A DNA stretch of 64,000 bases from Branchiostoma floridae (lineage: Eukaryota > Chordata > Leptocardii > Amphioxiformes > Branchiostomatidae), in assembly GCF_000003815.2 (NCBI RefSeq), contig NC_049987.1, positions 21,648,187 to 21,712,186 of the forward strand, read 5' to 3'. A model generated the notes under the pieces. It was given only the letters and a program-made list of their open reading frames with translations. It had not been told where the DNA came from and did not search any database. Positions 12,001-59,100 of this stretch are shown one piece after another. Position 1 is the first letter of the stretch; each line of letters starts with the position of its first letter. Both the position numbers and the translations under genes were made by a program.

Positions 12001-15000
12001 TCGACGAGACCTGCAAGGATTTCAGGATGCCCAACTTGGAGCACACCATGAACATGACGAGCCACTTCACCGTCCTTCCTGCCGAACAAACCTTCAACAA
12101 GTCCCGGTTTGAACAGCCGCCGGCTCTCACCAACCACCTGTCAACCGGCAACACCCCCAACCAATCAAAACACTCCAGCTATGCAAATCAGGCTGTTGGT
12201 TACCATAGCAACCATCAGCAACCAATGCCTGCCGCCTTCTCTCAACAGCAAAGACTCTACGACCCGAGTAGTTACTCCTTCCCAAGTGCAAATACCTCGG
12301 CCAGGACCAGCTACCTCAGCCTACCCAATGCCTTAGGGGGTGATCGCAGCCCTCCCAATCCAGAAGCTGCTTCAGCATACATTCCCACCGGCGCCCCCTA
12401 TCATTCTAGTAGTAACCTGCAGGTGCCTTATCTGTACGTGCAGCCGGGCGGGTTGCAGTTGTCACCGGAAAGCAATATTTCCCCTGTGCACCCAGCCAGT
12501 GGTTTCTCCCAGCATGGGCTTGCACAGGAGAACATGGCAGGTGTTCCGGGGTTCAAGGTCAGTTCAACCAAGGTCATTGCCTTTGCCTAGTAGAGAATTA
12601 TCTAAGCCTAAATGTATATTTTTACTGAGGAAAGACACTATGTGAGGATAACTTATGATTAATATGAAGTTGTGAACAATTTGCAGGATATGGCAATTAC
12701 AAAAAAAAGTACTGGCGCAAACATATATATTTCTATGCAAAAAAAAGATCACTTTAAAGCATCTCATGTAACTGGACCAATATCTACCCACATCTACCCA
12801 TGGAAAAATCAATTATGAAAAAAATCAAAATGGCCTGATCAGGCAAGTATGGTAGGAGTCCGTAGGACATATGCTTGCCGATCAATACTTTCACGTTTAC
12901 TTGCCCAGGCGATCCTGCCAATGGACTTGTCTAACCCTGCATGAAAAACTAGAGGTCTGATTTCAAGGATTTGGTAACTTAATAATCAAACAGAGTACGG
13001 AGGGCTTTAAAAGTTTTATGGCACGTATTACCAATTGCTGACGTCAGGCATTCGCAAGATCACTCGTCTGTAACTCTCACAAGTTTACATTCTAAAGTGA
13101 TTGGTCATCAGTATTGACCCTGAAGAAGGCGATAGTGGTCGTTGAAAATTTGATCCGTGTATACATGTACTTGTGTTGGAAGAAAGTTAAGCATTGTATT
13201 GTAACTTTCTTTATGTCATACCTGGGCTGCAATTGAGTTTGATATGGGTGTTCTAGACAGGGTGATAATTTTCCGCACAGGCTTCTTAGTTGTATCACAC
13301 AGGCTTCCATTAATTAAAAAGAACACACTCCACACCCACTGTTGCTATTTATGAAATGAAAGGTGCAAGCAAGCAGAGTTCTTCTCGAATTGACGATTCA
13401 GTGTTTTTGGACATACATGTAGGTATGACTTGACTTGACTTGACTTGAATAACATACAACATGGTGTATTCTCATTTATGTTTTTAGGCGTCTGACCTGA
13501 CCCAGTGGCAGCAGGTGCAGCAGCTGCAGCTGAACCAGCACCTGGAGCACCTGGAACAGCAGAAACGGGAGCTGCTACAGCAGCAGCAGGTGAGCAGGGG
13601 GCATGTAAGGTCACCAGTGCAGAGGTGTGCTGACCAATGTTGACCTGCACATGTAGACTCACCATACTCCAATGGAGTGGCTGTCCATCATATGGAAAGA
13701 ATGAGGGATACTGAATAATCTGTGTACTTAAATGTATAGTTGATATTAAGGATCACCTAGAGCAGCAGAAAAGTGAGCTGCTACAACAGCAGCAGGTGAG
13801 CAGGGGTCAAGTTAGTTCACCAGATTGAGGCAATGTTCCCACCATGAGCTGTATTGCTATACAATCACTATTAGATAGGCTGAGAGACTGCATGGGACCC
13901 TTCTGGGCAGTCATGCTGCGGAGATGCTTCAATGGATCGCTTGAGGGCGCTCCTCCCATCAAGCATTGTGTGATTGTAGCCAGGCAGATGACAAGTCAAT
14001 GCGCAGTGCAGTGATACGTTGACATCAGGGCTCCAGCCAGCGTCCGTTTTTCCGTCAATTGACGGAAATTTGCTAGCCTGGAATCCAGCCGTATTGTGCT
14101 TGGGTCGCTCCCCTGAGGTACGCTTCCTGCCAAGACGACTGGCCTTCGTTACCATTCGAACGATCGGCGTGCGAATATGCGCAAAGATTTTATGCAAGAT
14201 TTCTGATTGGCTGAATTATGGATGGTTCAAGCGCTCGTTCGAACAAGCGTCCCAGTATCATCAACATGGCCACCGCGTCAGACGTTCATAATACCTGAAC
14301 TACCCAGCAAATTACCCTGAATTTCTTCACTAAAACGAGCAAACAAAGACCTTAGAGGCTTTTCTCAACGGAAAGGATGTTTGAATAGCACTCTTGCCAA
14401 CCGAGTATGGCAAGAGTTTGATTTATCAGATTGTTCCAATAGTCTCGAAGAAGATGGGTCGTTGATGATAATAGAACGCCTGTTCGAACGAGCGCTTGAA
14501 CCAGCCAAACAGAAATCTCGCATAAAATCTCTGCGAATATTCAAATGCCGATCGTTCGAATGGTAACGAAGGCCAGACGTATTGGCAGGAAGCGTACATT
14601 TGGGGAGCGACCAAAGCACAATACGGCTGGATTCCAGGCTAGAAATTTGCTGCGTCTGACGGAAAAATTTTAAAACCAATCCGTCAACCTTGACAGACAA
14701 AAATACTTGGTGGAAGCTACAGGCGGCCGTCCACGGCCGTAAAAGCCACAACTGTTTGTTTTGCTATTGTTATGATTGTTGACAATGTGTGTCGGCGGCC
14801 TTTTGCATACGACAATCTCATTAAAACCCGTTTTTCAAGGTCTCAGTTCAGTCCTTCTGATTAATTTTTGCGGTTTTCGCGGTTGACTGATGAAATACCT
14901 GATGAAAGACATTTTTTCAGGCTACATTGCCAGCTTTTTTTAAAAGCATTTCTTGTTTCACAGAGTAGGGGCATCTTAGTGCACTAAAGCCCAGTGGTAA

Positions 15001-18000
15001 TCAATGCAGCCATGAGGATTGTAGGGAGTCTTGGTGAGCAATTATCAGTTGAGGTAACCAGAGGGCTGCTGACCATTGTTGATATGGAAAGGACAAGGGA
15101 TACTCAATAATCTTTCAACTGTGTACTTAGACGTGTAGTTGATTTTACGGATGACGTCCTATGAAGGCCCCAAATAGTAAAATAAAGACTATTCTTCCTG
15201 TAGTGTGTGGGCTTGAAAAAACAAACAGCCTAGGGCGAATTACATGTAGATGCCATCCTTCTGCGTTAGAATTAGGTCACATTTCATCATACGACTGTTT
15301 TCCAGGTCTACTCTAGTCAGACATCTCCCCAGTACCCTCCATCAGCCAGCAACGGTTTGAACAACGACCCCGGAAGGTGGGACGCTCTGGTCAAGATCAA
15401 GGATGCTATCCTCAAGGAGAAGGACAACATCATCTACAAGTAGGTATCACTCAGCTGTTTTAATGGGGTATCACATGCATGTTCTCTATTGGGGAATCTA
15501 GATTCAAGCTGTCCAATTTTGTGGAAAGTTTATAAATTTCAATCAAAGTTCAAAGTTTTATGTAAATATCTATGGATTAGACTTGAATGTGCATCTATAA
15601 GATCTGTTTTAAGTATACAAGAGTATTGTTCCAATAATTATTTGGCAGATTAAGAAATACACTGTTTTCATGCAGTTGTAGCTGTCTTTCACTAGGTGTC
15701 CCCACTGACTTTTCTTGTGCCTAGAAGTGTGCAGTACTAGATTCTGTCAACAGAGGGCGCTTTGTGTTAGGTGCTTGAGCATGTTAAGAAAGGACACCTG
15801 CTGGACAATGAGCTTACAGCAGTCAGGAGCACTTTGCATTAAGCCAAACAAGTTTGTGCCAAACAAATCGCGACTTTGACTTCTTTTTACTTATTCTAAA
15901 GTTGTCAACGTATAGAATTGGACCCAACTTTTCTACTGCACAACATGATACTTTCTGAAAGAATGATTATACCACGGTGAATTCAGACAGAATTTTGAGC
16001 TTGGATGTTACAAGAGCAGTTATTCATATGCATAAAAGTGACAAGTACCTTCCAACAACTGGGTATTCATTCTACATTGTAACTTCCTCAATACTAATTG
16101 AAACCTGCCCCTTCAACTCCAGCCAATCAAGTCATGAACATTCAAACAGTGTACAGTCTACAAGTGTACAGTTATGACACTCTGGCAACCAACTGTCTAA
16201 AGCAAACAGCAAATCCTTACCTTTTCTCCTTGTTCAAAACAATTTGCACCAAGCGAATTATGACTATGACCTTCTTTTTATTTATCAACAGATATGAAAG
16301 TTGTCAAATTATAGAATTGGACCCAACTTTTCAACTGTTACACTTGTCTAAATGAATCCTACCAAGGTCTTACAAAGCAGCAACATTCGAACAGCCCCGT
16401 TCAATCTTACAGTTGTGACACCCAACCAGCCGTCTAAACTCTAAACCAAACAGCAAGATCCTTACCTATTCCCCTTGAACAAGCACAAATTTTGACTGTT
16501 TATGTTTTAATGTCAGTATGTCACTATTAAAAAAAGTTAAACCCTTCACGCGCCTGATGGCACATAGGGCGGTGCCCATCTCTGTTTTTTTAGCCCTCGG
16601 CCACACAACGCAATCACTACAGCAGGGGGCTGGTCCGCTGGTAGTGATGTGTGTTTAACTTCCATACTCTTCCTTATTTTAAGTGCTGAGTGCTAAGTAG
16701 AGAAAGCAGCATGTACCATTTTCAAAGTCTTTGGTATGACCCGGGGGTCGAATTCACGACCTACCGGATGCAAGGCGAACACTCTACCCACTCGGCCATT
16801 GCACCGGTTATACACCAGTTATATGTCACTATGCCTTAAGTATATTCTTTTAATGTTTTCTTTCCCAGCCATATACAAAGTAATTTGAAGAATTACCCTT
16901 TGGTCCTTGTTATTTGCCATCTGGCTTTTTGTCTTAACATAATATATCTTTTCTGTCCAAAACGTCCAGATTAACTTGTTTGTGGGGCTCTGCTTGTGTA
17001 AACTGTGTTTGTTCCATTATTAGATCACCAACGACAGGGCTAAAGCGTTCCACTGACATTATGTCACTGCAGGTATATTTTTAGTTTCTTGTCCAGCACA
17101 CCTCAGTCAAACATTGTTCTTAAGACTTGTGATACATACAATGCCTCTATTATAGCTGTTTACATTGTGTGACTGTGGCCCACAAAAGACTTCATACTTT
17201 TCTAGACAAGCAAATTTGCTCAATCATTTCTGTCATTTTGGAGCCAGGCTACGTGTATTTAGCTTAATCCGGTAGCTGACGTACCGTGATGACTTTGTTG
17301 TTATGTTGGTTTTGTGTGACTGTGATGGGGGGTGACTGCACGTTTGTCTCAGGAAAAATGAGTCAGAAGCTGGTCTTTTTTTTTTTTTTACAGAAATTTG
17401 CCATTTTATACTGTCAAAAATAAGTGATTTGGACAATTTCTTGTTGGGTTTGCGTTATTGCAAAGCTGTTTGGTCTCCTTAGAATCTCCCAAAAACACAC
17501 AACACGAAAAATGTCATTATTGAGAATTTTCAGTATTTTAAATATGTACACTGTACACTGTACACTTTACATTACCCTCTTATAATATTGAGAAAATAAT
17601 TCTGTCCTTGTTAAATATACATGATAATAACAAAACGTTTCTTGCATTTAGAAAACAACATAATATAAGGCCCAGGTCTCCCCTTTTTTACAAACAAAGG
17701 ATGCTATTAAGAAATGCTCACTGTGTTTGCCACAACCCAGGTATTAGCAAAGTTCAATGTAAATATACAATCCCATACAAAATGTAAAGATTTATGACAT
17801 TTTAAGATGAAAGGGAATGATATAATTCAGTTTGAAAGCCGAGCATCATTGTTACTTAGCATTGTGTGGTTAAAAATGAATGCAGTCTAATCAATCATCC
17901 GTTCTCCCCTGATAAGCCAGTGCATGATTAGGTCTCTACAATAGTTTGAAAATGTCAGAGACGGAAATTAATGGCAGGCCTGAAGTGGTGTTTAATAGCT

Positions 18001-21000
18001 TTGCAGCTCCGAACGTGACCAAACAATGGGGACGTTCGGCCCCCCGGTCGGAGCGCCAATGTCGGAACGTGGAACACCTTTCAAACGTTTGACAGAAGTT
18101 TACAGCTGTTGTGTTATTCTTTTGTTTTGGTCCTAGACTGAGTTATGGTAGCTGTTTGTTAAGATAAGGCTGCCTGGTTATGTTTACTTTGTGTGACTGT
18201 GATAATAGAAAATTGCAAGTCTGAGTTTGAGGATTGGAAGTGACCGGAAAAAAAGTAGGCCATGCTGGTTTAGAAGGTGCATTGTTATAATTTGAAAAGA
18301 AGTTTACTTACAAATTGACTTCATCTTTAAAAGCACTTGATTAAATCTAGATTCAGAGCATACTATCATGGCCCACCTGTTCATGTATTCAATGTAATAA
18401 ATATTATCATTAATTCAGTGTCATAAAAGGAATGAGATATCATTAAGATAAGAATAAATAAGAATTGTCTTTTAAATTATAGTTGTTAAAGCTGTCATGT
18501 GTATGTACAGACTGTGAACTGGTTTTCACAATTCAACTTTAAATTTTTGCCTTTTATAAACATATCATATTAACGTACAAAAATATAAGTGTGAGAGTCC
18601 TTGTTTGATTTTTAATTATCTTGATCAGAATGCAGGTAAATCAAATAAAAACCCAACAAAAAAAATCACCTGGGAAACATAACCTCATTGTTAAAGGCAA
18701 CAATAAGGTATTGTTTTCCTTGGGTGGTCGGTGTTTGTCAGTTTGTTTCCACTTATCCACAAAAAGTTAATTACATCTGCCTAGCTATGCTGCTGCCCCT
18801 TTTCAAAGTGCCAGGAAGTTTTTATGCCTGTACGGATCTCCTTGGCAAATATCTAACCTAAACTTCAGAGAGAATTGTATTGCTGAATCATACTTAGGTC
18901 TGGACAAAAAGAAATGGGTGTGATTGTTTGTACAGTTATCGCACATTCACAATAGCATAGCTACTTTATAGTCTTGTGTGTTGTAGTTGGAATGTGCTGA
19001 TAGTATCAAAATTTCACCATGGCTTTTTTACAATGACAGAAAACAGAGAGAAGTATGTGACCTTTGCTTTACAGACCTACGTGTGTGTTTTGGACTCTCT
19101 GAATTGCCGAAAGCGTTCTACTTTCCAGTGTTGGTAACTGTAGAGTTTGACAGCGCGTCATAAGTTCCCAGCAGTATTTTTCAAAATTATTTTTGCATCT
19201 TTCTATAAGATATTATGACTACCAATTTTCTATGTATTTACAAAAACACCTCTCTGCTTCTCAATCTTAACCCTCTGTAGCCAACACAATTTTTTTCTAA
19301 AATCAAAAAACGAAAGGCTGCCTAGGAAGGAATATGGCTTGTACAGAAACAAACATGTTCTTTCAAATGTTAGGTGAACTTTCAATCCAGGTATGTCCAT
19401 TATATATCAATCATATCAATCAATCAATTTAAAAGATTGTGTACTTAAGATTTGGAAAATGATGTTCCAAATTTGAAATGACCAATGTCTGTTGTGTTAT
19501 TGGTCTTCTTGTGAAGTCTTGTACATGTAGTTGGAGGTTTCTTTATAATTACATTAGTTTTTTTATGTATTCAACTGTATTTTCCTGTTCTCTTTGGCAG
19601 CCCGTCTGCTGTCTACATCTTTGAAATGTATTTCAAGTTTTGAGAGCAAGAAGCCTTAATATCGACAACCACAATGAAAAAATTAGAATTTGGACATACA
19701 ATGCCAGTAACAGTCTAGCAACCACAGAAAATGAAATTAAGTTTTCGTGGTTGGCAAAAAAAAATCCTTCGATATGATTATGTATTCAAAAAAGTCATTC
19801 AAACTTTACAGTTATCAGGTTACCATGACGCCCTTTACTTCTCCCCAGCCGTTTGCGAACCTGTCGCCGCGCCCTGCCTCGTTAAGTGCGTTTACCCAGC
19901 ATCCCCAGCAACCCTGCCCCCGTCCAAACAGCCGCATTTATAATCATCATGATCATGTTCGAGCGCGGGGACGGCTCTGATCGTGACCAGAGTTGTTGTG
20001 AAAAATCAGATTAGTAGTCCAGGGTCAAGAATGTGTTTGATTTTCTATAAGTAAGGTAAACATGATGTTAGTGCCTCGGCATTTACTATGATTTAGCGAT
20101 GAGCGAATGTTTCTACTTATGGTCACCTCCTGTTGAAATGAAGAAAAAAAGCCTCTCAGGTCCTGACAAATTTGGCAAGCTAAACATTTTCAAAATTTCC
20201 AGAGCGCAATATTAGTTGGTCTTCATTGCAGCCTGTTACTGTAGGATTTTCTTCACTAAAATCTGTGTCATCTTTTTGTTATGACTGCCCAAGAAGAGGG
20301 GGTGATAAAATGAGGATAGGTGACCACTATAGAAAGGATCTTTAATTCTTATGCTTGTGTCAATGTGAAAATTATCTAAGGGATGTCACAGACAACTAAA
20401 AAGTGGTCATGATGGCCATCTGTACTGTAGAGGTGGTCACTTGTACATGTATGTACAGGTTTCACTGATACATTTCCAAACAAACTCTGCCAGCAGTTGA
20501 AGGCTTCGCTATTTTCAAAAGCATCATTGTCAGTTTTAATCAATTTTTCTCCAATGCTCTTTGCCCACACAAAAGCTATTGGCATGGTGAATGAAGGGAC
20601 AAGGACACTGACCTAAGAGAAAACTTTACACAAGGGTTCAGTGTGTCAGGACACATTGTTTGCACCAATTCTCCCTCACAATAGAACTTCCCTCCCCAAG
20701 ATTGTCCACAAACACTCGGAGTAAATGAATTTATATTTCATCAGGGGAGAGCTCTTCCGGTAAAGATACTGTAACTGATGAATTGTGTTCAAAAGAATGG
20801 TCTACATTTGCCTCGGTAGCGATGTAGGCTGAGGGTTTTTGTTGATTATGGACATTAAACACCTGATTACACTAATTACAGTGATAAGTTAGGACCACGT
20901 CAGAGCTATGCTTGATAAGGACACAATTTAGGTGGAATTTTGCCGTCAGTGCCAGTTTGGATATTTGATCAGGAGGAAGTTGGGTTGTCATTTGTCTCTG

Positions 21001-24000
21001 TGGAGAAATGTTAATCTCCTTTCATACCTGCACAGGTGTATAATCAAATCACCCATTCAGGGACATCAATTAATTTGCCAGGTAGGGGGTGGGAGGGTTT
21101 TTGTGCGGCTCGTCCCGAGGGAACTAACCTTTACCGCACGGTTTTGTTTGGAAACGCTGCGGTCCAGAAGCACTGACTGTATCCCAGACCCCAGCTAAGC
21201 TATCAATAACTAAACTATTACAAGCCTGGGTATCGGCTGAAGTAATCCTTCAGAAAACACACCAAGCAAGAAAAGTTCAACAGACTACAAGAGCGGGTCT
21301 GAAACAGGTGGCTTACAAGTTGCGCGGGTCAAATTCTCCAACTGGGTTTTCGAATCAGAGAGTTGGTTAGGATTAGGTAAGCCACATCATGAAGGGGGTG
21401 TGGACAACATGTTAGACCATGGGTTGAAAGGGAGAATGTTTAGACAAGAGTGTACCAAACGTTTTGCTACAGGATTGCGTTACCCTTCTGAAATTTACAT
21501 AACAAAAATTGCACAGGCTTGGGTTTCTGTTATACTTTCCTATGATAACATTTGGTTATGTAATGGACAAAATTGCTCATGACTTAAAACAAAGTTAAAG
21601 ATGAAGAAACTTTGAATGAAATCTTCCTCCTTTTTAGCAAGGAATTGTTCTTTCAGAAAGTTAAATCCAGACTTGTCTATGCTTTGTAATTTCAGCTTTC
21701 ATGTACATACACATCACAGGCATACAGACCTTTTTTGCATTACATAATACAATATGATACACAAGGTAGAATGGATGAAAAAAATCTCTTACCTGCCCCA
21801 CCTCGTCTTGACTTCCTCTTAATAAGTCTTAAGTGGTCCACCAGGAATACCTCGTTACCAATCCGTCCTCGTTAATATTCAATAGCGATTTTTTCGACTA
21901 ATTATGTGCGGCTATCAAACCCTGGCATCTCCTTTGTCTAGGCTGACAGGTATCAGCTCATAAATCGGCCATCAGTAAATAAACTGAGGGAGGGGGCCCC
22001 CATCTTATCTCTGCAGATTCTTCTGTGTTGTAGCACTCTGTTGACTCGCATAGCTCCACTCAAGTGGCCTTTAAACCCGCGTTTGCCGGTGACCAATGGA
22101 AGAGTTTCCGCGATAGGCCCCGGAGGTGTGCGCGCGCGGACAATCCGAGACGGCAGTTGACATGCGGGCTGCATTGTATCGTTTTTGTTGTCGCACGGTA
22201 AAGCAAACACCCGTGCGCTTTTGCAAGCGACACCCGACACTGGGACAAGGGGAGAGATTTGAAACCTGATCTGAGTTGACTGGCTGGAGGCACGTTGGTA
22301 TAGATTCAGACACTAGGACAGCAACAGTGAACACACTTTCTCTGGAGCTCTGTCATGAAGAGGACTTAAACTGCTTCTTAAGGCCCTGTTCTTGACATAA
22401 AATGACTGCAAAGTGTCTCAGAGAAACAAGTTTACGTTGATAGAGAGTTCAAACTACCAATAGGACGGAAGGAAAGTGGGAAAATTTGACTTCAAGAATA
22501 TGATGGCCACGGGAGAAGGAGAAGTGTCGTCGTAAATTTTCTTCTGAACGGTGGAAATTGCTGAGAAGAAGAAAGGAGTGGGAGACAGTTTGAAGGAAAA
22601 GGGAGACTGTTTGAAGGAGTGGGAGACTGTTTGAAGGAGAGGGAGACTGTTTGAAGGAGAGTTATTTTCAGCAGGAACTGTGCAGGACAGAGTGGAGCAA
22701 TGTCTAAGCTGAGTGTGGAAGTCCTGAAGCACACGTTCAGAATGAACGACCTTCTGATCCAGAATGACTTTGAATATTTCAGGCAGAAGCAGCAGCTGGC
22801 GCAGTTCCAGCGGCAGTCCCGCGAGCAGGACATCCGTCTGCGCACCACGCTCCGACGGACGCCTGGCGAGGAGGATGTCTTCAACCTCAAACTACAGGTC
22901 AGTTTGTACTGTCTTTTTGCAGGAAGAAAATTTAACTTTATTGACTTAAGAAATTAGGTTAGAATATAGACTTTAGAAATTAGAAAGCAGGGAAAGGAGG
23001 GCATTAATTGCTTGTGTAAAATGTAGTTTTAAAAGTACAGCCAAAACTGCCCAAGAAGTCAATATATAAGAACAGGTGGTCACTGTAGACTGGATCTTAA
23101 TGCTTGTGTCAATGGGGGAAATTATCTAAGGGACCATCACAGCTTTTGTCTGTATTAAAACCTGTAACTAGAAGATCAAAAATCCTAGTCCCGATTCGGT
23201 CTTGAAAATGTTAATCTCTCTTTACTTTGATCAAATTCTTAGCATGCATGTACTCGTCTTGCAATGTCATCAGAATAAAGGGACTGTCCAACCCAACTAC
23301 GTGCCCTTTGTTATAGTATTGGCTGTCCCTTCATGGAGGCTGATGAGTTTTGTTTTCATGCGTAAATCAAATTTATCTGGAAACTGACGAGATGTCCAAA
23401 CAAACACACTCTGTAAGTATGAGTTGTCAGGGTGGAACGTGCGGACGACTCTCGCCTTTTCAAGGTTCCACGGTGTGTTTGCTGTGGAAGGAAATGAAAG
23501 GGATTTGTTAGGGAATGACTGTTTTATGGAGTGGACTGTAGACATGGAACAATTCCCCTTGTTGCCTTTCTACAAATATGGTACTGTGTATTGAAGTGAT
23601 TTATTGTGCAGCTCTAAGTAGTGAATTTTTTTCTTCTGTAAGCATTCAACTAAAGTTTGCTTTGTATAGCATTATTAGCAATATTCCAATTTATTTAGTG
23701 ATTTGGGGCTTTTTCCCGTTATGATTTTTTTATACTACCTACAGTTACCAAAGAAAGTTAAGGAAAACTATAATATTCATGGCTACCTTGTCCCCCTAAC
23801 GACCTGGAGGACTCAAGGGACTAGATAGGTAGGTAGTTATATTCAAGACCTTAATTTCTTTTATGGTAACAGAGCTTGTAATTGTAAGGAAGAAAATCTT
23901 AATTAAGATTTTGGAGGCAAAGTCCGTTAGACTTTGAAAAGCAGAGCACAAAACCTCCGGAATGGTAAATAAGACTCACTGTTTTGTTCCAGTACAGATC

Positions 24001-28593: not shown

Positions 28594-28630
<37 letters not shown>

Positions 28631-28739: not shown

Positions 28740-28781
<42 letters not shown>

Positions 28782-31700: not shown

Positions 31701-34700
31701 TCATATTTCTTTGATCTTTCGTCTTGTATCCTTTGATACTTCGCCGTCCGTGTGTTCCCTCCCGCGTTCACACGTCAGGTTCGCCCATTATGCTAATGTG
31801 GTACTCACAAGAAAAGTCTCGTCATTTTAGACTTATCTCTTAATAAATGTAAGAATAAAATCCACCATAGTCTGAAGTTCATATCATTTTGTCTTTGTAA
31901 CAATTCATTTAGAAAGTTTTTGTGATAAAAATTAACCTAAGCGATAGTGTATTAGAACGTAACTTTAACGCAATTTACCTCTGTAATATTGGTGTCGTCT
32001 ATTGACCTTATATGACCTCGCTTGTCGGCGGGTATGGGTAGCGCCAGTTTACGAAGTTTTGTTTTGAAAATAAATCAAAGAGGTTTTAAATCCGGCGTAG
32101 GGTGACGATACGGCAGCTGTATATGGCCGAACGCGTGCCGAAACATAGATCAGCGGTCCGCGTGGCCGTAATCGGCAGTGTTTTTGTACCTGCGGGACCG
32201 GAAATCGTGTGGCCGTGGCCGCGTTGGACAGGTGGCCGCTAAGCCTATTTCTTAATCATTACGAATCCAAGGGACCGACAAAAAGTGGCCACTATGGGCA
32301 GGTGGCCGTTATGCAAAGGTGGCCGCTAATACAGGTTTGACTGTATTACTTGATCTAATCTAACATCAACTCTCATAATTCCACCGGATGCTGTAATACA
32401 AACATATGAAATTTAAGTGATCTAAAGAGATGTACCAACACAGCATCAGAGGTATATACACTTCCGATATCGTGATGTTCAAGACAATCTTGAGAAGGCC
32501 TTTATATCTTATAACATTTTTTATGTGGCAGTATTATGGCACCCGGTTGAATATTGAGAGTTGATAAAACATGTACTTCTCATAATACATTGCTAATTGT
32601 TTCAAGTATGTACTCTTCCATCTCACTGTTCCTCTCTTGTATTGACTTCCTCAGGTTAGATGTTAATTTAGGGAAATGTTGACCCAACCATGTCTTCTCC
32701 TTCTCCCTTAGCTGAAGGATCGAGACAAGATGGTGGGAGACCTGAAGAAGAAGACGAAGCACGCAATGGAGAAATATGAGAAGTATAAGAAGCGTGTGGA
32801 GAGTCTGGAGAGATATCTGGGAGACCTTCCCACTCAGGAGGAGGCCAAGAAGAGGGCTGACCAAATATCCTTTTGTTCTTGGGTGTTACTGGCAAATTGT
32901 TATAATGTCAGAATTTAAACTTTTAACTTCTATATAGGGGCAGGATTGAGAACTGGTATATTGATTTATAAGATTCCCCTGTAAAAGTGCAAAAAGGAAT
33001 GGAAAATAAAAGATAGTTTCCTTGTGGTTAACTCACTCAGCTTCCATATTATTTGACCAGGCACTGTATATTGTGCACATCCTCCCTGTTACTACATGTG
33101 ATAGAATAGCTTCCTTTGAGTTGAGACTGGATTTTCTAATAACAGATTTACATGTACCATCAATCTATCAATCAATCCATGTACAATCCTTAACCCCCCT
33201 CCCCACCTCCAGACCAGTAAAGAAGAGGTGTCCCAGCTGAGAGAAAGGGTCGTTGACCTAGAGGACAAACTCAGCCTGACCAGGAAGGATAACAAACTCA
33301 AGGTAGGAGAAAACTCAATGTTCATCATACTAGAGTAGGCTTTGAAACAGAATCCACAAAGCGTTTTATTTTCACATCAGAGGATGTCATCCATAAAACA
33401 ATTTTCTGTCAGCTTACAAGATACGATATAAGGCTAGGGTAACCTATATCCAGTGTTTTTAGAAACAGGATATTGGAATGTCAAGTCAACCAATGGTATT
33501 TTCAAGATATTGCAGTTTGAAAATAGTCTGTAGACTTGATATCCTTATGCAAAGGATGTTGGTTACCCCGTGGATAAAGGTGAACTTGTGTTACATGACT
33601 GTATTTATGAAGTCCATATGGAGCGCCAAAGAACTAAATTGGGATGCCCATTTTGTCCCTGATGAGGTCTTTTTTCTGTATTGAAAACAATTTCTCCTTC
33701 CCTTCCCAGGATGCCACAGTGGACAGCCTGGAGCAGAAGGAACAGGAGCTAGTTTCCATGGTTACCAGGTAGGTTCAGAGGTCATGGAAAATATTCTGCC
33801 ATAATGCAGCATATATCTACATAAACTGTTCCTTCTATCTTTCTTGCTTGCTGTCTTGCATTCTTTCTTCCTGTCATCTCAGAAACATGTACAAACATGT
33901 CTGACATTTATTTCCACCCTGCTGCAGCCTGCAGAAGGAGTTAGGGAGATGGAGGGATCGAGGGAAGCAGGAGGAGAGAGATGCAGCCAGCCAGGAGGAC
34001 GTGGAGGAACTGAAGTTTGAGAACGACAGACTGAGAGAAGACTGCGACAGGGCCAAAAAGGTATGTCTGGTCACAGTGTATCACAAGGAAATTCTGGTAT
34101 TGAAGATTAAGTAGATTTCCAGCCATGGCAGGAAATTATCCCCATCTTGTACTGATGAAGAATTCTAAAGAATTTATTTCTCGATTCTAGAAGAGAATTA
34201 AAATCTTTGCATCAAAAACTATTAGAGTTATCCTGGTTTGGAGTTTTACAGGTTTGATTGTGTATCCAGTTTTTGCCCAGGGCAGTAAAGACAAAATTGA
34301 AGGCTATGTGAGTAAGGTTCTGTGTAAGAGAACAGTTAAGTCAGGATTCCTTGTCTGACAGTTTGTTTATAAGTCCCTGCATCTTCAGTTGTTAGAAAGT
34401 TTACTCAAAATACAATTAAGGTTCTGTTTGGGATGAAGGTGCTTATCTGACAGTTCCTTATCCCCTCTACCTTAAACTGTTAGAAAGTAAACATAATTCA
34501 AAGATGAAGTCTCTACAGTTAAGGTTCTTATTAGAAGGAAGGTTGTGTCCTTGTCTTATGGTCTTATTCCTGGTACCCCCAGCTTCTAGAAAGTAAACAC
34601 AAGAAGATGAAGTCTACAGTTAAGGTTCTGTTTGGAATGAAGGCCCTTGTTTGACATTTCCTCATCCCCTCTACATTTTGTACCTCCAGCTCCTAGAAAG

Positions 34701-41340: not shown

Positions 41341-41341
41341 G

Positions 41342-42000
41342 GCGGGTTGTGCCCTTAGCTTTACGTCACAAGCCACCAAGCATATCCAGGTCAAAAGATA
41401 ATACAAAAACGGAATTACTACGGAGATGGTACTCAGGCTACCAGAAACGACGGAGATGACGGTGCATCATTCCAAAACGCCCGGGTCGGCGTGAATTTGG
41501 CACAGTCTTCAATGCCAATAGCGTCGTTTGGTTCACCGCGGGCCCAGTTAGAATACCCGGACGACTTCAGGAGTTGGCCATCCTCATAAACCCAAAAAAC
41601 ATCTCTGTTGATAGCTAACCCAAGCTTAGCCCAGGTGAGGCTGATAGTTAACCCAAGCCAGCTGGATCCGCGATGGTGGTTGGTGACGAACCGGTTGGTG
41701 GCACGGTCTTTCGGCATGGCTAACAGCCCACCGTCTTCGGCACACCTTTGTCTAGCGCCTTCGTACGTCTTCGGTTCAGCAAAGAACTTGTAGCAAGCTC
41801 CTCGGAGGCGAACGTTGCCCGATATTGGACACACTATAGAAAGATATAATTTTTAAATGAACTCAGGCTACCAGAAACGACGGAGATGATTCGATTTGAA
41901 AATTTGACAGGAGAAAGAAGAAACATTACGAAGACAATATATATGTCACCATACTACGTATGGCTGAAATATAAAAAGCGGGTTGTGCCCTTAGCTTTAC
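41342..42000. repeat. Nested direct repeats A-B-[lectin exon]-B-A
   Basis: A 23-base repeat starting GCGGGTTGTGCCCTTA is at 41342-41364 and 41978-42000. A 29-base repeat starting ACTCAGGCTACCAGAAACG is at 41431-41459 and 41861-41889. All copies are exact and in the same orientation, arranged around the lectin exon. Confidence 0.85.
41433..41833 (-). CDS. C-type lectin domain exon, truncated at its C-terminal end
   Basis: A 133-codon exon with acceptor AG at 41834-41835, entered in phase 1. It reads CPISGN..GACYKFF..KTYEGARQRC..GGLLAMP..WLGL..GEPND..EDCAKF..FWNDA, a long-form C-type lectin domain. GEPND is an EPN-type calcium and mannose-type sugar motif, and WND is the second calcium-binding motif. 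A normal domain ends with two more cysteines after WND. Here the frame runs into SPSFLVA and a TGA, supplied by a transposon-like terminus (see findings), so disulfides C1-C4 and C2-C3 cannot form. It could be a truncated gene, or the donor GTAGCC at about 41440 could splice to a missing last exon. The signal-peptide exons at 48.8-49.2 kb on the same strand are phase-compatible and may be its 5' end. Confidence 0.75.
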
Positions 42001-42632: not shown

Positions 42633-42806
42633 TTTATATAGACTCGTATATGTATGTATACATGTTAGCTGCATACTGTGAGTATTACCTTCCTATCGTT
42701 TAGAAGACAGGAGATAAAAGATATCTTAGGAAATACGGCATGTCCTCCTTTATCCAAATTAGGTCAATCCATTGGGGGTAAAGTTTAGCTGTTGATAAGT
42801 ACCTGC

Positions 42807-43035: not shown

Positions 43036-43040
43036 CCTGC

Positions 43041-46000
43041 CTTATAATTTCGGAATTCCTATATTTCACCGTTATGGATTCTCCCCACAAAATGTATCGT
43101 TTTCTAATTAATTATGCAAGTTATTCAGAGTAATTGCTACTTCGTCGTACTCATCTCTAAGCAACCCACACGAGGGTCCAGAAATTCTTAAGTTCTGTTC
43201 ATTTGTTATTGACTTTAATAAATCATGTGAAAATGTGTTCAAACATGACAGAAAAAGAAGAGGAATACACCCTCAAAGATAATATATTTCCTGTCGGGAA
43301 ATATGAGATATGATTGACACTCCACCATGCACCACTACACAACCTCAACCTCCAATAACGTACACCTCGGGCACGTTAAAGAACCTACAACATGTACACT
43401 TTCTCGACGTGAATGAACCTGTTATTCTGTCCGGATATGCAGCTTGTACTCTTCAGTTCAAACGTTGGGTGTAACGCCGCCATTAGGCGGTTTGCTGGGT
43501 AAGCAACATAAACAAACAACCTCTTCGCCCGGAAACCGGCCAGCAAGATCGGTGCAGACAAGCCATTCTGTACCGTTAGCCCCCACCGGTCAGAAGGACG
43601 CAGTGAATTCGAAAAGCTAAATATAGAGCTACAAGACTTTGCTGAGGCCAAAGCAACAACATGATTAGGGTGTTGGGAGGAGGTCAGGAAAGACACAGAA
43701 ATGCGGGATAATGGATACAACATCTTGCCATTCAAGATAGTACCGAGTCACCTCAGTCTGTGTCGTGTCGTAGGAGAGTCTACCCAAACCCGGCAGGGTT
43801 CCCGTACACTGGGCCACGAGTGGGTTTGAACTTGGAGGACGAACGCGTGGAGAAGGACACAGTTTTCTAGCCTATGATGAAATTGACAAGGCATGGTACC
43901 TCAACAAAACAAGTCTTTTATTTCTGTATTCAAGAGGTGCCACAAATGATCTTGAGTGTGTGTGTGTGTGGGGGGGGGGGGGTCCTTTAGTTTTCTTCCA
44001 AATCAAGCAAAAATTGATGAGCCCACTGATATCATCCATAGACCTCGTGTGCCCTAATCTTCCTTGGCGGGTCAGCATCACTCCCAGCACAGTAGAGGTA
44101 TGCGTAGTACCGGGGTATGCATTTGCAGTTCCAGCTTTAATACCAGGCTGAACAACAGTAGGTGAAGTGAATTTGTAACTCAAACTTTTTTATGATAAGT
44201 TATCATTAGTGATAAACATAATGGAGTTACAGTATCAGAACGTAGTTATTGTTTTGAAGTTAAAGATCGATCAGTTGTGTGAAAAATAACAGTGCCCTGC
44301 ACATGGTCGTAGTTTGTCGTGTCAGTTTGACTTGTCCTGTCCGCCCAGCAACTATAAATCCATGCCTGGAGCCAAATCTGGCACGTGCGAAAACACCATT
44401 TGTACCATCGCCTGTTTTGCAAGCACGGCTGTTTGTTTATCTGGAACAGACCCGAAAACACATTTCTACCATCGCCTGTTTTGCAAGCCCGGCTGTTTGT
44501 TGATCTGGGACAGACCTCGGGCCTGTGACCTAGAAACCTTTCAAAGGTCAGTGACTCAATGCTTTCCCAAGGGACCTTATGGCCAGTTTTTGGAGAAGAC
44601 CGAACAGGTTCAAACTGGTTTGATCCCCCCGACCTATGGCTTCTCCATCAGGGGAGAAGTTTTAAAACATTTGACCAATAGGACAAAACTGCCCCCCTCC
44701 TGTCAATCTTCCGACACTGGGAGGGTCCGGGTATACACTCCGGTCCTTGTCTGTTGACGAGACAGAAGGAGCGGGGCGTCCGAGGGTTTGAGGTCATCTC
44801 AGCTGTAACTTTTCTGGACGCTACGACTGTAGTTTGGAGTCTGTTTCCGCTGCAGATACAAGGACATGCATCACTTCTGACAAGGTATGTTGGTTTTTCT
44901 CCGATTGAATGGCCTGTTCCTTGCATTTGGTGCAGCGGAAAGTTATATCATTGAAAGAATGTAGTTTTTGATACTAGTATTCCCTCTCCGGTTAGATCGG
45001 TCGGCATTCATTGTGTAGTGTCATTGTCAGATTGTTCTGTGGCCGATACCGTGTATATCTCTCCTAGAATCACCAAGGTCTAGACTTCCAGTTGATGCCT
45101 TTGTACATGTACTTGTGTCTGGATTGGTGAATAAGTTCTTCGGTGATGCGATTTCAACCCTTACTTAGCTCTAGGCTTCTGTGTGACGAAGCTTCAAGTG
45201 TACGGAGAGGTACTGCGATACCGCTCCTTTTCTTGGCCCTCTAGATCTAGCCAAAATCTGTTTATATTTCATAAATACGAGTTTATCTCCCGCAAGTCAG
45301 GTTTACCGTAGTGAAAATGCGGTGCTATTAAACCCCGTCAGATTTTCGAGCTTCGTCAAATTCTACCGCTAGCAAGAGAGAAAGAAAGTCAAACCGTTGT
45401 AGCACTTAAGTTGAGTAGACTTACTGTAGATGCCATCTGTTTTTCTAGAAAGGTTTTGCTGGATTCGCGACTAATACGATTATAGAAAGCTGTGTTGATT
45501 ACGGATTTGATGGCCGTTCCGAAATGTAAATATGGAGGGGGAGAGGTTGGATCTTACAAAACTGGAAGTCAAGCAAAAGCAGGATTCAGCTTCTGGGGTC
45601 CCAGGGAGGGAGCGAGTCCGTAAACGACCCCGTATGCGCAGATGCCTTGGCGGACATGCATCACTCCTAGCACCGTAGAGGTGCCGGGGAGCCCTCGATG
45701 GAAAAGGGAATTTGATACTGAAACTTTTATGATAATTTTAAGATATCAAAAATACTATGCTAAAGTTGCATTGCATGTATCATAATGTAGTCTTTCTTTT
45801 GATATCATCAGTTAAGGTCATCGGCTTTGCTCTTGTAAGTTGTAGGTTCTAAATTTTAGTTATTTTATTTTGAGACTTTGTTTTGTTGTTTGATGTGTGA
45901 TCGATGTGATGGTAATGATTTGTTGTTGTCATTGAATCAGATATTTTGCAGCTCTTTTTTTTTCTTTGTACCGGTCTTGTTGTGATTTGATGTCAGTTTA

Positions 46001-48733: not shown

Positions 48734-48800
48734 TCCCAACATTTTGTATATTCAAATAATGTTGATTTAGTTATGAGCTGGGAATATGAAATATCCTCAC

Positions 48801-52114: not shown

Positions 52115-52302
52115 CCAAATTGGTGCTACTTTTACTATCGAGCTATGTTTAATCTTAGCTTCACTTCAAATGTAGCATTGATTGTATTTGTAGAAGTGAC
52201 ACTAGTGAGGTGTATGTAGCCATGCCCGTATTTGCAGTGAAACTAAATTTGAAGTGAAGCTAAAATCAAACATAGCTCGATAGTAAAAGTAGCACCAATT
52301 GG
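52115..52302. repeat. Foldback repeat with about 58-base arms
   Basis: CCAAATTGGTGCTACTTTTA..CTTCACTTCAAAT on the left and ATTTGAAGTGAAGC..TAAAAGTAGCACCAATTGG on the right, with about 70 bases between. Confidence 0.85.
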
Positions 52303-52758
52303 GGACTTTCTCATGTTCACCATTTCCGTAGCCTTAATGAAATCGCGCTCCTAGCGGCCGACCCTGCAGTTGCCGCCACCGGTCATTAACCCCAGCCAGC
52401 GAGAGATTGTGTAAACACAGGCTACCATTTCCGGAAGGGGGAAATTCTTTTTTTTCTTCAAAATTGATTACTAGTAAATGAAAGCACTGATGTCATCCAT
52501 AAAATTTACTTGCTGTGACCTTACATAACAAAATGACTACAATGCATCTGAAGAAAATTTCAACCACCAACACAGATTAATTTTCCTGGCAGAAACGTTA
52601 TCTACAGAACTTTCTCTCTAAAAACCCTTTGGTTGCCGTTGAAGGAAGTTTTGTCCCGGTATAAGAGAACCTATCCAACGTTGAAAATCGCTCCGGCGTT
52701 TATCATACAATACAATCGCTTCTTCTGCTGTTCCAGAAGCGAACATAGGAGCGAACTA

Positions 52759-54979
52759 CTACCCGGATGGTACTCGGGCTAGTCTGGGAACGGCGCGAAC
52801 TTGGAACGCGGCCGGCATGAGCGCCACTCCCAGGACCGCGTCCTCCACCGAGGGGAGGGGGGCACCGACCGGAACGTGCAGGCTGAGGGTGAAGTTCTGC
52901 AGCAGCGCCGCGAAGAACACAACAAGCTCCGTCCTGGCCAGCTGCTCGCCCAGGCAGGTACGGCGACCTGGAGAGATACCAAGAATACTAGTAATCAATG
53001 AATTCACAAGAAAGACAGACTTTACAGAAGCTCCCAATCAAAGTAAGCATGGTGATGCAGAACTTCGCAATGAGGAAAATCACAACATAAATACAATGTA
53101 AAGGAATAATGGAATTCATGAACGGAAGGAAGGAAAAGAATGAATGAATGAATATTAATGAATGAACGAATGAATGAACGAATGAATGAATGAAAAAAAA
53201 TGAAAAAAAATGAATGAATGAATGAATGAATGAATGAATGAATGAATGAATGAATGAATGAATGAATGAATGAATGAATGAATGAATGAATGAATGAATG
53301 AATGAATGAATGAACGAATGATCTCGTACCGATACCGAAAGGCCTCCATGCGGGCGGAGTCGTCACCCTCCCCTCCCTGTCCAGGAAGCGGGTGAAGTCG
53401 AACGTGTCGGGTTCTGTCCACTGCAGCGGGTCCCTGTGGACAGCCCAGCAGTTCATCAGCGTCCAGGTGCCCTCGGGTAGGCGGTACCCCCGCAGCGTGA
53501 CGTCACACGCGGTGGCGCGAAAGTTGAGCGGAGAGGGCGTGGCCAGGCGGAGGATCTCCATCACGGTTGCCTCGGTAACGGGCAGGGCGCGGCGATGCGC
53601 GGCTGAGACGCTCTCTCCTCTCATCAGCACCCGGTCCAGCTCGGCTCGGACTGTCGTCTGCACGGTGGGGAACTTCGCAGCGTAGAACACGAGCCACATG
53701 AAGGCGGACAGGACGGTTTCCACACCGGCGATGAAGAGGTCAAAGACCGTCTGCATCATCTGATCATCCGTGAAGCTTCCCGGATCCTCCCCGTCGTCTT
53801 CCCGGCGCTGAATCTCCAACAGGAACACGTCCAGCAAACCGCGGATGTCGTTTGGGTCAAGCATTTGCCTGTGCTGGTGGACCTGGTTTGCAATGAAGCC
53901 ACGCATTTGTTTAAATCCAGATTCGAGGTCTTCGTTGCCGTCCTTGAACCCAAGAAAAGGAATTTTCCTGAGAAAAGGGAAAGCGTTAGAAAGTCCCAGG
54001 GAACCGAGGCTTGTCGAGATGATATTCATGGAAGAAACAAACTCTTTGTAAGCTACATCGTCGGGCTTAAAGCGCTGTCCAAACACAACAGAACAAGTGA
54101 CGTTAAAGATGGAGAGGGCAACGTCCGACTGGATGTTCGAAGGCTCGCCCCGATGACGTAGTAGTGACGTCACGAGAGTTCCGGCCTCCTGGTCGATGAT
54201 GGTTTCTTCGTTTGATGCCCCGTTTCGTAGCAGTCGCATGGCCCTTAGAACGAACTTTCGCTGTTCTCTCCAAGCTTCGCTGTACGGTGCAAATATTATT
54301 CCTATGGATGGAAAAAAAATCAGGTGATGAACAAAAAGTCACATCACATCACACATTTCTGAAAAAAAATCCGAGAAGCAAAATATAAATTTGATATGGC
54401 CTAATCACCTTTCCCATTGTCGCTGAACAGTTTGGCTAACGGCAGACTTGCTTTCCCGGCGAACTTGGGGCCCAGGTCCACGAAGGCTTCCTTGAAGGCC
54501 CGGTAGCTGTTCAGCACTACAACGTGTTCAGAACCAAACCGTACGGCAACGATGTCCCCATACCTGCAATAGTTGCACAACTGCTTCATTAACATACAGC
54601 ATTGTCCGACGCCCAACCAACTTACAAGGTAGTCCTATTCAGTGTCTAGTATTCTGACTTTGTTCTGTGTTGAGAAACTTCCGACGACAGCCAACTGGGG
54701 CCAAATGATGTATATTTTACCTTCATAGTGATATCAGTTTTATGTGAAGAAAGCTAAAGACACTGAGTGACGACACACTTACTCTTTACTCCAATTTGTC
54801 AGGTTGACGTGCGACCGCTGTCCTAACCATGGCAGGTGTCCGATAACCGGCCATGCGGGCGGCCCGGGAGGCCAGCTCTTCCGCCCTGACTGCCGAATGC
54901 ACAGCCACAGTAGTAACAACACCAGCAGTAGCAGGAACGGCAAGAGCTCTTCTCTAGGATAGACCAACAAAAACGCCAT
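52759..54979 (-). CDS. Cytochrome P450, CYP2 clan, complete four-exon gene
   Basis: Exons on the minus strand: 54979-54783, 54563-54409, 54301-53330, 52967-52759; 510 residues (an upstream in-frame ATG at 55018 would add 13). It is a heme-thiolate monooxygenase, N-terminally anchored in the ER. Visible motifs in order: hydrophobic anchor FLLLLVLLLLWL; proline hinge WPPGPPAWPVIG; helix C WREQRKF; I-helix oxygen motif AGVETV; ExxR as EILR; PERF-like PDTFDFTRF; and the heme loop FGIGRRTCLGE, whose codons are split across the last intron (FGIG | RRTC). The large 972-base third exon and the FGIG form resemble CYP2U/CYP2-clan enzymes; the substrate cannot be told. The last intron holds a (TTCA)n array 10 bases from the donor. 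The last codons after VRAVPR come from a transposon terminus. Confidence 0.92.
53142..53319. repeat. GAAT microsatellite in the last P450 intron
   Basis: A nearly pure (GAAT)n run, (ATTC)n on the gene strand, broken by GAAAAAAAAT. Reading it as protein (SFIHSFIH...) is an artefact of intron read-through. Confidence 0.97.
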
Positions 54980-55019
54980 AGATGGTATTGATGAAGTAAC
55001 GAAAGTAACTATCCACACC

Positions 55020-55194
55020 TAACACCAGATACCATGCACAGTCTTGGTCCCAACTATTATTTTGTGTAGTCTGTAGACCAGTTGGGTAGGCCCTGGCGAT
55101 GACAGGTATGTTCTCTGTGGAACCCATGGGGGCTTCTGAGTCCGAGCAAGGACCTCCTTGGTCCGAGTGATTGCGTGTCGGAGCCCCGGGTTAT
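55020..55194. other. P450 upstream region
   Basis: Short non-coding stretch between the P450 start and the LINE fragment; no TATA box recognised. Confidence 0.3.
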
Positions 55195-55925
55195 GAATGA
55201 ATGAATGAAGACCTTTAAATATATTGTACGTAGATATCCACTGGGTTCAGTACAGGTCACAACAAAAGATACATGAAATATATACAATGAATCTACAATC
55301 GTTTCTTTGTGATATTGAAACTGTAACAACAGATATGCTTTATAAGTAAAGGTTTGTCTAGATTCATAAGGAATATAAATTTGCCTATGTTACTTTAGTT
55401 GTATGAAGTGGGGAAACATGGGTTCTATTAGTCTGTAGAGTTCAGCTCTCTCTTTCTTGTACAAACTACATTCTACTACAAAATGATGTTCGTCTTCTAA
55501 CTTATCTGGATTGCAGTATCTACATATTCGTTGTTCTAGAGGAGTGCGGTTATGTCTTCCGGTTTCAATGTGTAATTTGTGGCAACTGACTCGTAGTTTT
55601 GTGACGGCCATGTCCTGTGCCGAATATTGTCAATATCCAGATATTGTTCTACACTATAGGTGGACTTGAACACTCTGTAAGACCTCAATTTGTTTTTAGC
55701 GGATCCACCTTTGTTGTCCTTGTGTAGCTCTCTTGGAAACGTTTGAAAATAAATGTCTTTGAGACGCTGACTGATAGAAATATGAAACTGGTCGAGGTCA
55801 GACGGCGTGGTGTTAGAACAATCCGCCCGCGCCGTGGCTATGTCAGTTTCATTGGTGTCATTGGTCAATTCCTTGGACAATCCGGCGATGTTTACTGGCC
55901 AGTAGTTGGGAAACGTCACGGGCTT
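55195..55925 (-). mobile_element. LINE 3' end fragment, frameshifted
   Basis: On the minus strand, two overlapping frames carry the end of a non-LTR retrotransposon polyprotein. The first has a charged stretch followed by NIRHR. The second has KLRVSCHKLHIETGR, then C-x2-C-x8-H-x4-C-type spacing (ICRYCN...HHFVVEC), the zinc-binding tail typical of LINE ORF2 proteins. A small indel near 55610 shifts the frame between them. The 3' end at about 55190-55210 is a short TTCA-type tail. No reverse transcriptase core is present, so it is a 5'-truncated dead copy. It lies between the P450 and NUS1. Confidence 0.7.
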
Positions 55926-56192
55926 GGTTGAAACGATTGATGATGATGATTGAAGAGTTGCGAAATTGGCGATGAATTTGGTCGTCCCGAGAGCACTTCA
56001 AGTGGTAACGTTATTAGTGCGCTGCCTTGCGACATATCTACAAACTGCAGTTACATTTCGTCCTCCAATCGACGGGCGACACGAAACCGAGGCTGCGCGT
56101 TGATTCCAACATGGCAGCTTCCTGATGCAACTTTCCTCCTCGGACCTTTCGCTACCTTCTCTCCCCTTCAGACTTCTCCTACACCTGGGACA

Positions 56193-59100
56193 ATGATCCT
56201 ACACCAAGTCTTGCTTTACCTCGTGCACACCCTCCTAGCGATCAGGACTTGGCTAGCGTCTCTGTACCATGGCTTGAAGAAGCCGCTCGCCTTCAAACAC
56301 CGGAAGAGGACCGTTCCTCGGATCAAGTCGGACTCGAAGGCGCTGAGCAGGCTGCCGATCCACGTGGGGTTGGTGGTGGTGGAAGAGGATTTCAGATACG
56401 GGGACCTGGCCAGTTTGGTGGTGTGGTGCGCGGCCATGGGCATCTCCTATATCAGTCTGTACGACAGCCAGGGTAAGCAGCTAGCGAGCGTTGTGGTTCC
56501 TATCGTGCGCGCCCCCCTCCCCCTTGTTCGATGTTACACGTATCGCATTCATGATTTGTTTGGAAGCGGCGTTATGCTCGTGCATAATTTCAACACGCAG
56601 ACTGGTAACAGTGTTTATGAATGAAGTTTTTATTTCATTCACACTCTAGGATCATAACGTATTCGTGTAGATCTCAGCACAGCGTTTATAGTACATGCAA
56701 ATGCTTACGTGGGCGTGCTTCTCGACTATCATATTGAACTTTGACCTGAATGCTCAACATGACTTGTTCAGCACTTTCTTGAAATAACTTTTGGCAGTTG
56801 CATCAGCTCAAAAGATTCTTCGTACCATCTTAAGGCCAAAGGACCGAGGCATTCTTAATGTTTAGCCACCAGATCAGACCACCTGTTTGCGTGCACTGCC
56901 TAAACGTTATAAGTTGTGAGTTAGGCCAGGCAGTAGTAAGCATGTTTACCGTTTTTTTAGAGCATAGCGCGATCTTTGGCCTGAACACGTGGCGCAGGCA
57001 TGATCACTAAGCTCAGGAAGCTCACTCAGTCACTGACCTTTAATAGTGGCAGTTGAACTCACCTTCAACTGGGAGGACTTTGGACTTGTAGGTCATACAC
57101 CATGCATGGCTCAGTTTCAAAACTTCAGATAGAAAAAAATAAAGAGTTGAAAAAAACAACACAACAACACTGGTCTGTACATTTTGAATCAAGATTTATC
57201 ATTTGAGCAGATCACCTTGCAGTGATAAGTAGCCCATAGGTTAGCAAGTGTCCCTGCTGTTTTATTAGTAGGACATATTGACATTATTAGAGGGAGGGGT
57301 TGCTATCCGCCTATCCCTGACCCTATTTCTTTGAACATGATGTGACTAAATGATTGATTGAATTTAAAGATATCATACTGCAGATTAAAAGACATTCATA
57401 TGCATTAGGACAACCCAGGCCCAATGACACACACACCACAATTGTCAAGTTAATTGACAGTATGTCCTAATTGTACAACAATATTATCGAATTAAGAGAT
57501 TGAAACAGACCAACCAGTATGAAGGTATAAACTATAATATAAACTATGATGTTTTCTTCCTCCTCAGGAATTCTCAAAAGAAACAACACAAGTCTTTGGC
57601 AGGAGATCATGAAACAACAGCAGGAACTTCTAGGGGAGGATAGTAACAAGTACAGTATAGAGCTGGTCACAGGAAACAGAACAACAACACAGCTAACAGG
57701 TAAGGAGGACAGCAACAAGTGCAGTATAGAGCTGGTCACAGGGAATAGAACAGCAACACAGGTAAGGGGGAAAACAGTAACAAGTACAGTATAGAGCTGG
57801 TGACGGGGAACAGAACAACAACACAGCTAACAGGTAAGGGGGAACTAACACTGCATTTTCTGATGCTACCTGAAATGTCTGACCGTTACCCAAAATATAT
57901 CAAATTGCTTGAGTAATTATTTGGCATATGCTTGTAGTTAAAGCTGTGCCTCTGTTCAATGAAAATGCTAAGTTGAGATTGAAGTCATGGCACAGAAGGA
58001 TTCGCATCCTCTGTTATAAAATATAATACACAAAATGACTAGCCTCCATGTACATGTACATGGCTGTCTGTTAGAAAAGGCCAGCAATCAGCGACCCAGT
58101 ACAAAAAGAAATGGCCAGCAAAAGTGCCAAAAAAGGCCATAGAGAGCCTGCTATGGAGGCTACAAAATGACAGTGAATTGAACTTGAAAAGGAACCCAAA
58201 CTGAAATCTTAAATTTCTTCCTAGATCTACTCTACTCTAGAAAGAATACTGGTACTGCTTGGAGATAATAATCTGATTAAATAAATCATCAAGTAATTTA
58301 CTTCTGTGAAGTTCTGTCATAGCATTATTTGTGCATAGTGTTCTTAGCCTCCCACTTTACAAATGTAACTCTGACATTTAAAAAATGTCTTTATTCCTTC
58401 AGGACAAAAATATAGCGTTGAGGTTCGTCTGTTGTCGTCAGAAGACGGGAGAACAGACTTGTTACAGGCGGCACAGCGGTGGTGTCAGGCCGTGGAGGCC
58501 AGACGGAAGAAAGTGGGCGACCTTGAACCCACAGCTCTGGAGGGGCTGCTACAAGGTCAGTACTCTGGTTATGTGAATAATTTTGCCAGCTTGGCAAATT
58601 GCTGTATGACAAAGTTCACGCTCACAAAGTTACAGTTGAACATCTGTTATTATTAGAACTAGTCATTATATCAATGACGAAGGTGGCATAGTCAACGAAA
58701 TGTTGGCTGTTGTAGCTTTCTGGTTGTGAATCAAGGACTTGTCAAAGAATACTGTTAGTACTTTAATCAAATGTAGAGATCTCTTCACTAAAGGTGATAT
58801 CTGCACCTGGGGCACCAGTGTGGTACTGTGGTGCTCGTTCACTGCTGCACTGTTGTTATTTTTGCAGATTTTTCATAGTTAAAATATTGTGTAATACATA
58901 AGAGTATGACTTCGAAGACATCAAAATATATTTTCTTTATCTCTGATATTCGTTGAGTATTCTTTTGAACCCCACAGTGCTGCACCAGTGCCCTTAGTGC
59001 AGTGAGACTGAAGATGTAACTAAACATTAGCCTTAGCTGTTGACCTACTCTTGAACCTCTCTGTATGTCCATTCTTGTTAGCCATCTCAAAACATCATCA

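Follow-up and report, generated by a model that had tools for sequence, protein, structure and literature searches.

Exon-edge tandem arrays in amphioxus CEP85 and NUS1 are mirages whose spare copies differ from the real edges mainly at silent sites

Tandem repeats whose unit spans an exon boundary have been described in amphioxus under the name "mirages" (PMC3087553). That paper cites the mirage of Adh3 and describes two in globin genes, BflGb6 (unit of 150-160 bp) and BflGb9 (157 bp), and PMC3902484 adds one in PGBD5 and cites TnC. These papers also report that one BflGb6 haplotype has 6 units and another 3, that the Adh3 mirage is somatically unstable (PMC3087553), and that PGBD5 copies number 2 and 7, and 3 and 6, in two assembly versions (PMC3902484). 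Regular splicing is apparently undisturbed by mirages, as judged from globin reverse-transcription PCR (RT-PCR) and Adh3 data (PMC3087553). Here we analyse a 64,000-nucleotide stretch of the Branchiostoma floridae genome (contig NC_049987.1, positions 21,648,187 to 21,712,186; hereafter the window), which contains five tandem arrays with an exon boundary in the unit, four in CEP85 and one in NUS1. These arrays are amphioxus mirages, further members of the published phenomenon, and the differences between their copies suggest that many spare exon edges evolved largely as coding sequence.

Arrays were detected by Tandem Repeats Finder (TRF), ungapped repeat families and self-BLAST, and exons were annotated by hand on the basis of one assembly. 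These searches confirm the original prediction that exon boundaries act as tandem units at five places; TRF alone reveals only the arrays at 35.4-36.2 and 57.6 kb. As had also been predicted, both kinds of edge are involved, with three donor and two acceptor arrays, and the affected genes are unrelated, CEP85 being identified by Pfam CC4_CEP85 (E = 2.3e-28) and NUS1 by PDB chain 9r0k_B (E = 5.4e-65), with the Pfam family Prenyltransf also matched. In all five arrays the repeated unit includes the splice site, and the assembly gap listing has no run of Ns in any of them. The exons and arrays are as follows.

13488 to 13589, plus strand: CEP85 exon with its donor end repeated (open frame; AG before, GTGAGC after)
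13544 to 13823, plus strand: donor array of 2 copies at a spacing of 206, real edge 13544-13617, spare copy 13750-13823
34292 to 34824, plus strand: acceptor array, four spare edges at 34389, 34478 (AG lost), 34583 and 34690, plus the real edge
34785 to 34955, plus strand: CEP85 exon with its 5' end repeated; its translation lies within the protein matched by Pfam CC4_CEP85
35234 to 36189, plus strand: acceptor array, eight spare edges plus the real edge, serving exon 36152-36371
Spare edges of the 35234-36189 array: 35276, 35372, 35506 (AG lost), 35623, 35724, 35837, 35938 and 36051
36152 to 36371, plus strand: CEP85 exon with both ends repeated
36267 to 36746, plus strand: donor array, real donor after 36371, three spare donors after 36520, 36640 and 36724
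57568 to 57699, plus strand: NUS1 exon with its 3' end repeated
57633 to 57843, plus strand: donor array, real donor after 57699, two spare donors after 57761 and 57833, at spacings of 69 and 65

The exon body is attached to the last copy in acceptor arrays and to the first copy in donor arrays, so the remaining copies are intronic. The 35234-36189 array is built of units of 101 and 113 nucleotides, and a double unit of 214 nucleotides is duplicated at 100% identity, which suggests recent turnover. Decayed material is also present: the donor array at 36267-36746 has an additional decayed fragment at 36926, and the 13.6 kb donor array has a decayed third copy at about 15035-15155, beyond an inserted element. 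Direct reading of the intron behind this array found a long inverted repeat at 14073-14642, probably a DNA transposon. In NUS1, the frame stays open past the first donor through 57700-57761 to the next donor, 62 nucleotides on, in a phase that mismatches the following exon.

To compare the window with described mirages in the same assembly, we searched the 513-Mb genome for globins and found nine loci, two of which carry arrays of the published unit length at exon edges. Two further exon-edge arrays lie beside the window, which together with the five arrays among 42 hand-annotated splice sites agrees with the original prediction that the phenomenon is dense.

L026: BflGb9-like donor array, spacing 157
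L030: BflGb6-like acceptor array, spacing 154/158
L032, 7101 to 7500, minus strand: acceptor array in an unnamed gene, at most 20 kb from the window's end; no Pfam family was found for this gene
L033, 5822 to 6038, minus strand: acceptor array in TMEM192 (Pfam, E = 5.3e-14), at most 20 kb from the window's end

From position 1922 of L026, the BflGb9-like array enters a run of 100 Ns. In L030 (1273-1600), the real edge and the nearest copy are identical over 75 of 75 bases of intron, whereas in the exon 4 of 31 third positions and none of the other 61 differ; exon silent sites here are more diverged than the adjoining intron.

Like the mirages of Adh3, BflGb6, BflGb9, PGBD5 and TnC, the window arrays have boundary-spanning tandem units on the donor or the acceptor side, unit lengths that range from tens of bases up to about 160, and many copies that keep AG or GT; arrays matching BflGb6 and BflGb9 occur in this genome. 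The amphioxus Adh precedent to which the original prediction had pointed is a real one, cited as a mirage in both papers (PMC3087553, PMC3902484). What is added here are two more genes in the window, two beside it, and one exon arrayed at both ends. Like ordinary minisatellites, the arrays consist of imperfect head-to-tail copies with higher-order duplication, the 214-nucleotide double unit; however, a splice site and coding sequence lie within their unit, whose exon part retains a codon signature. They also resemble the Rogers model of intron gain through AG/GT tandem duplication, as discussed in PMC3087553, in that DNA with splice signals is duplicated within a gene, but here no new intron is seen and the copies lengthen existing introns.

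The codon signature was measured in nine arrays, five in the window, two in globins and two in the flanks, by automatically aligning the real edge to its spare copies and taking the longest open frame. Copies below the alignment threshold were left out, including the decayed ones at 34389, 35276, 35372, 36926 and about 15035, and this omission lowers the non-silent share. The 82 distinct differences fall at codon positions 1, 2 and 3 in a ratio of 16/7/59 (P = 1e-12 against one third). Third positions account for 31 of 41 differences in the window and for 28 of 41 in the four arrays outside it (P = 5e-6), on which the idea had not been formed, and with a lower alignment threshold their share is still 34/48. 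Non-silent differences make up 29 of 82 overall (35%) and 14 of 41 outside the window. By direct count, unconstrained copies beside a constrained edge would be expected to show a non-silent share of about 0.54-0.63, and the observed share departs from 0.55 with P = 2.7e-4 and from 0.61 with P = 2.4e-6. The TMEM192 array is the extreme case, with 9 differences over 78 aligned bases, all 9 silent, and the first spare copy at 36.37 kb has 6 of 6 silent differences over 97 bases. In 36 arrays away from known edges, with copies below threshold likewise left out, the pooled best-frame share is 891/2328 = 0.38, with little period of three. Because the differences are mainly silent, the alignments suggest that many spare copies behaved largely like coding sequence as they evolved, exposed to protein selection for much of their separate history. 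A codon-position analysis of mirages was not found in the literature searched, a search that did not extend to the founding Adh paper.

The silent bias could instead be a fluke of a few selected alignments, the spare edges being dead copies under no constraint. Each array contributes only 6-13 changes, the omitted decayed distal copies carry more non-silent changes, and the L032 array lacks the bias (3/7 differences at third positions, 5/7 non-silent). Likewise, the sole pair in the 34.8 kb array, 34690 and 34583, differs at 2/22 first and second positions and 1/10 third positions, giving no contrast. Against a fluke stand the P values over nine arrays and over the four outside the window, the persistence of the bias at a lower threshold, and a comparison of spare copies with one another. 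This last comparison covers seven arrays and 15 of their 22 spare copies; over pooled, non-independent pairs, differences number 34/385 at positions 1+2, a value inflated by a frame-shifted stretch of the oldest BflGb6 copy, compared to 45/187 at third positions and 94/620 in intron. In the 36.15 kb array, the six pairs among four of the eight spare copies each show 0/18 differences at positions 1+2, and their intron parts differ at 0-13 of 60. Mutation bias was rejected as the cause: with CpG and transition bias included, the neutral third-position share stays at 0.33-0.34, which also counts against dead copies. We consider it quite improbable that the spare copies are dead.

Differences that are mostly silent also resemble those between alleles, as would fit an assembly artefact in which divergent haplotypes or collapsed repeats were stitched together in tandem. 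Heterozygosity is 3.2-4.2% (PMC12862219), PGBD5 copy number varies between assembly versions, as noted above from PMC3902484, one BflGb6 haplotype looks aberrantly assembled in the draft genome according to the authors of PMC3087553, and the BflGb9 array here contains its run of 100 Ns. However, third positions of the copies have diverged by about 0.20 (51/251 in pooled pairs), about five times the published silent-site diversity (pi_S) of 0.0397 (PMC12862219), so the copies are not recent alleles; allelic mixing was rejected as a source on the same ground. The window arrays are without Ns and have up to eight spare copies in graded decay. The PGBD5 array is reported by its authors to have been confirmed with Sanger and new Illumina data (PMC3902484), and the trace reconstruction of BflGb6 by its authors likewise has tandem units (PMC3087553). 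An artefact is therefore very unlikely in our view. Paralogues were also rejected as a source of the copies for the three exons checked: at the DNA level, and with match counts that are lower bounds, CEP85 36152-36760 and NUS1 57568-57860 match only themselves genome-wide, and the only matches of the TMEM192 exon are the exon itself and its spare copy.

Spare edges would also be kept coding if some transcripts used them, either as functional alternative ends of the exon or as cassette exons. Coding-type divergence of the copies is consistent with this, as is the retention of splice dinucleotides, GT in 7/7 spare donors and AG in 15/18 spare acceptors (globin and flank arrays included, with one L032 acceptor positioned by offset only). 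There are also two in-phase cassette candidates between AG and GT, at 13751-13795 (45 nucleotides) and 34583-34624 (42 nucleotides), the other copies having been judged for cassette potential by eye only. However, across the window, globin and flank arrays, 0/25 spare edges extend the exon in frame without a stop, and the globin RT-PCR and Adh3 data cited at the outset suggest undisturbed splicing. We doubt strongly that alternative use maintains these edges.

The original prediction held that ordinary minisatellites should not repeatedly pick exon edges, which would call for a special mechanism. A process linked to splicing or transcription, such as R-loops, RNA-templated repair or recombination with spliced RNA, could favour exon edges in this way. 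We weighed this against 42 splice sites annotated by hand, some of them tentative (for example those of the 4677-4720 exon, which rests partly on similarity), and 11 window arrays called by self-BLAST, 5 of which contain a splice site; this list omits three TRF minisatellites (4952-5046, 22573-22661 and 44388-44516), all of them away from the listed sites. The arrays make up 8.5% of the unmasked window; coverage alone thus predicts 3.6 of the 42 sites inside them compared to 5 observed (P = 0.28), and neither avoidance of exon edges by ordinary minisatellites nor the need for a special mechanism is supported. Counting arrays with a site, a circular shift gave a mean of 2.1 (P = 0.058) and independent placement a mean of 2.2 (P = 0.045) compared to the 5 observed, which favours targeting to a degree. 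However, placement restricted to gene bodies (5/9 arrays, mean 2.6) gave P = 0.088, and counting the 34.3-36.7 kb cluster as a single event (3/7, mean 2.2) gave P = 0.38. The window may hold a borderline excess; the tests do not demonstrate that minisatellites pick exon edges.

A border test, which scores an array when coding sequence runs out of it on one side, extended the comparison; its expected values for the window and the random sample are slightly low, because any placement that fell on Ns was discarded with no rescaling. In the window, 5/11 arrays scored compared to about 1.1 expected, although one of these (10452-10689) adjoins an unassigned frame and the NUS1 array was missed. In 30 kb beside the window, 2/3 scored compared to 0.54 expected, both of them the exon-edge arrays in L032 and L033. 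These excesses, and the exon at 36152-36371 arrayed at both edges, speak for targeting. In contrast, random sequence (19 stretches of 10 kb, 176 kb unmasked; one more stretch was all N) holds 30 arrays, of which 2 abut coding sequence compared to 1.7-1.9 expected, one in L006 and one in L007, and the L007 array begins about 30 nucleotides inside the intron rather than across the boundary. Array density is ordinary, with 11 in the 64 kb window and 30 in the 176 kb of random sequence. Moreover, the units include unspliced intron and have their ends within exons and introns, not at the junction, and the window had been chosen for its striking look. Exon edges are therefore struck often, but not clearly beyond what general array abundance predicts, and the splicing- or RNA-linked mechanism on which the original prediction had speculated finds no support here. 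We regard such targeting as improbable.

The explanation that we think probably holds is that mirages arise by ordinary tandem duplication, with a unit that happens to span an exon boundary, and that many of the copies later came under protein selection. Tandem duplication would yield minisatellite-like arrays, some of whose units happen to include a boundary, and such edge duplications would be tolerated because one intact edge remains joined to the exon body, the extra copies turning into intron. Rearrangement of the array may then shift spare copies into coding position, where those that break the protein would be lost. This promotion of spare copies is our leading guess for the cause of the silent bias, and it is suggested by the published somatic and haplotype instability of mirages described above. 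In a population whose effective size is about 1.7 million (PMC12862219), even weak selection of promoted copies could act. The exchange itself is our inference; what the data directly support is the anatomy of the arrays, their membership among mirages, the absence of a clear enrichment, and the pattern at silent sites.

Several results weigh against this explanation. The spatial enrichment is borderline rather than absent (P from 0.045 to 0.38), and the border test in the window exceeds its expectation. The L032 array shows no codon bias, and published pi_S is far below the divergence of the copies. In addition, single-lineage simulations under edge-birth, random and conversion models gave non-silent shares of 0.58-0.69, and population simulations with exchange between individuals gave 0.54-0.66 (0.53-0.61 for the nearest copy), compared to the observed 0.35. 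These simulations give a rough guide: copies in the population runs carried 16-59 differences each, more than observed, and two settings of the population model returned identical numbers. Because every simulated model produced too many non-silent changes, germline turnover was rejected as a sufficient cause of the silent bias on its own, and an exchange of edges would need something extra, for instance somatic exchange at a high rate or alleles that diverged very long ago. A bolder form of the argument, which we put forward as unlikely though worth stating, is that spare exon ends are coding sequence in waiting: although intronic and apparently untranslated, they would be promoted to the coding position by rearrangement, perhaps mostly in body cells, so frequently that selection in a population of more than one million keeps them protein-compatible.

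The window has other features of note. The CEP85 intron at 32865-33206 resembles a U12-type AT-AC intron: its donor is ATATCCTTTT, a TCCTTAAC branch site stands at position 33187, and its end is probably AC. A GAAT/ATTC microsatellite of about 47 copies at 53138-53321 starts about 10 nucleotides past a donor, annotated by hand, of a P450 gene on the minus strand. A 28-nucleotide identical direct repeat lies just before (41431-41458) and at the end of (41861-41888) a C-type lectin exon, also on the minus strand.

If mirages occupy about a tenth of splice sites, as the 5/42 in this one window would imply, amphioxus splicing must pick among near-identical edges at many exons. At such a frequency, these edges would let splice-site choice be tested in nature and would supply raw material for intron gain. 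Should the codon signature hold genome-wide, protein selection would reach DNA outside the coding frame and, if spare exon ends are indeed coding sequence in waiting, amphioxus introns would hold a codon-constrained reserve of exon ends.

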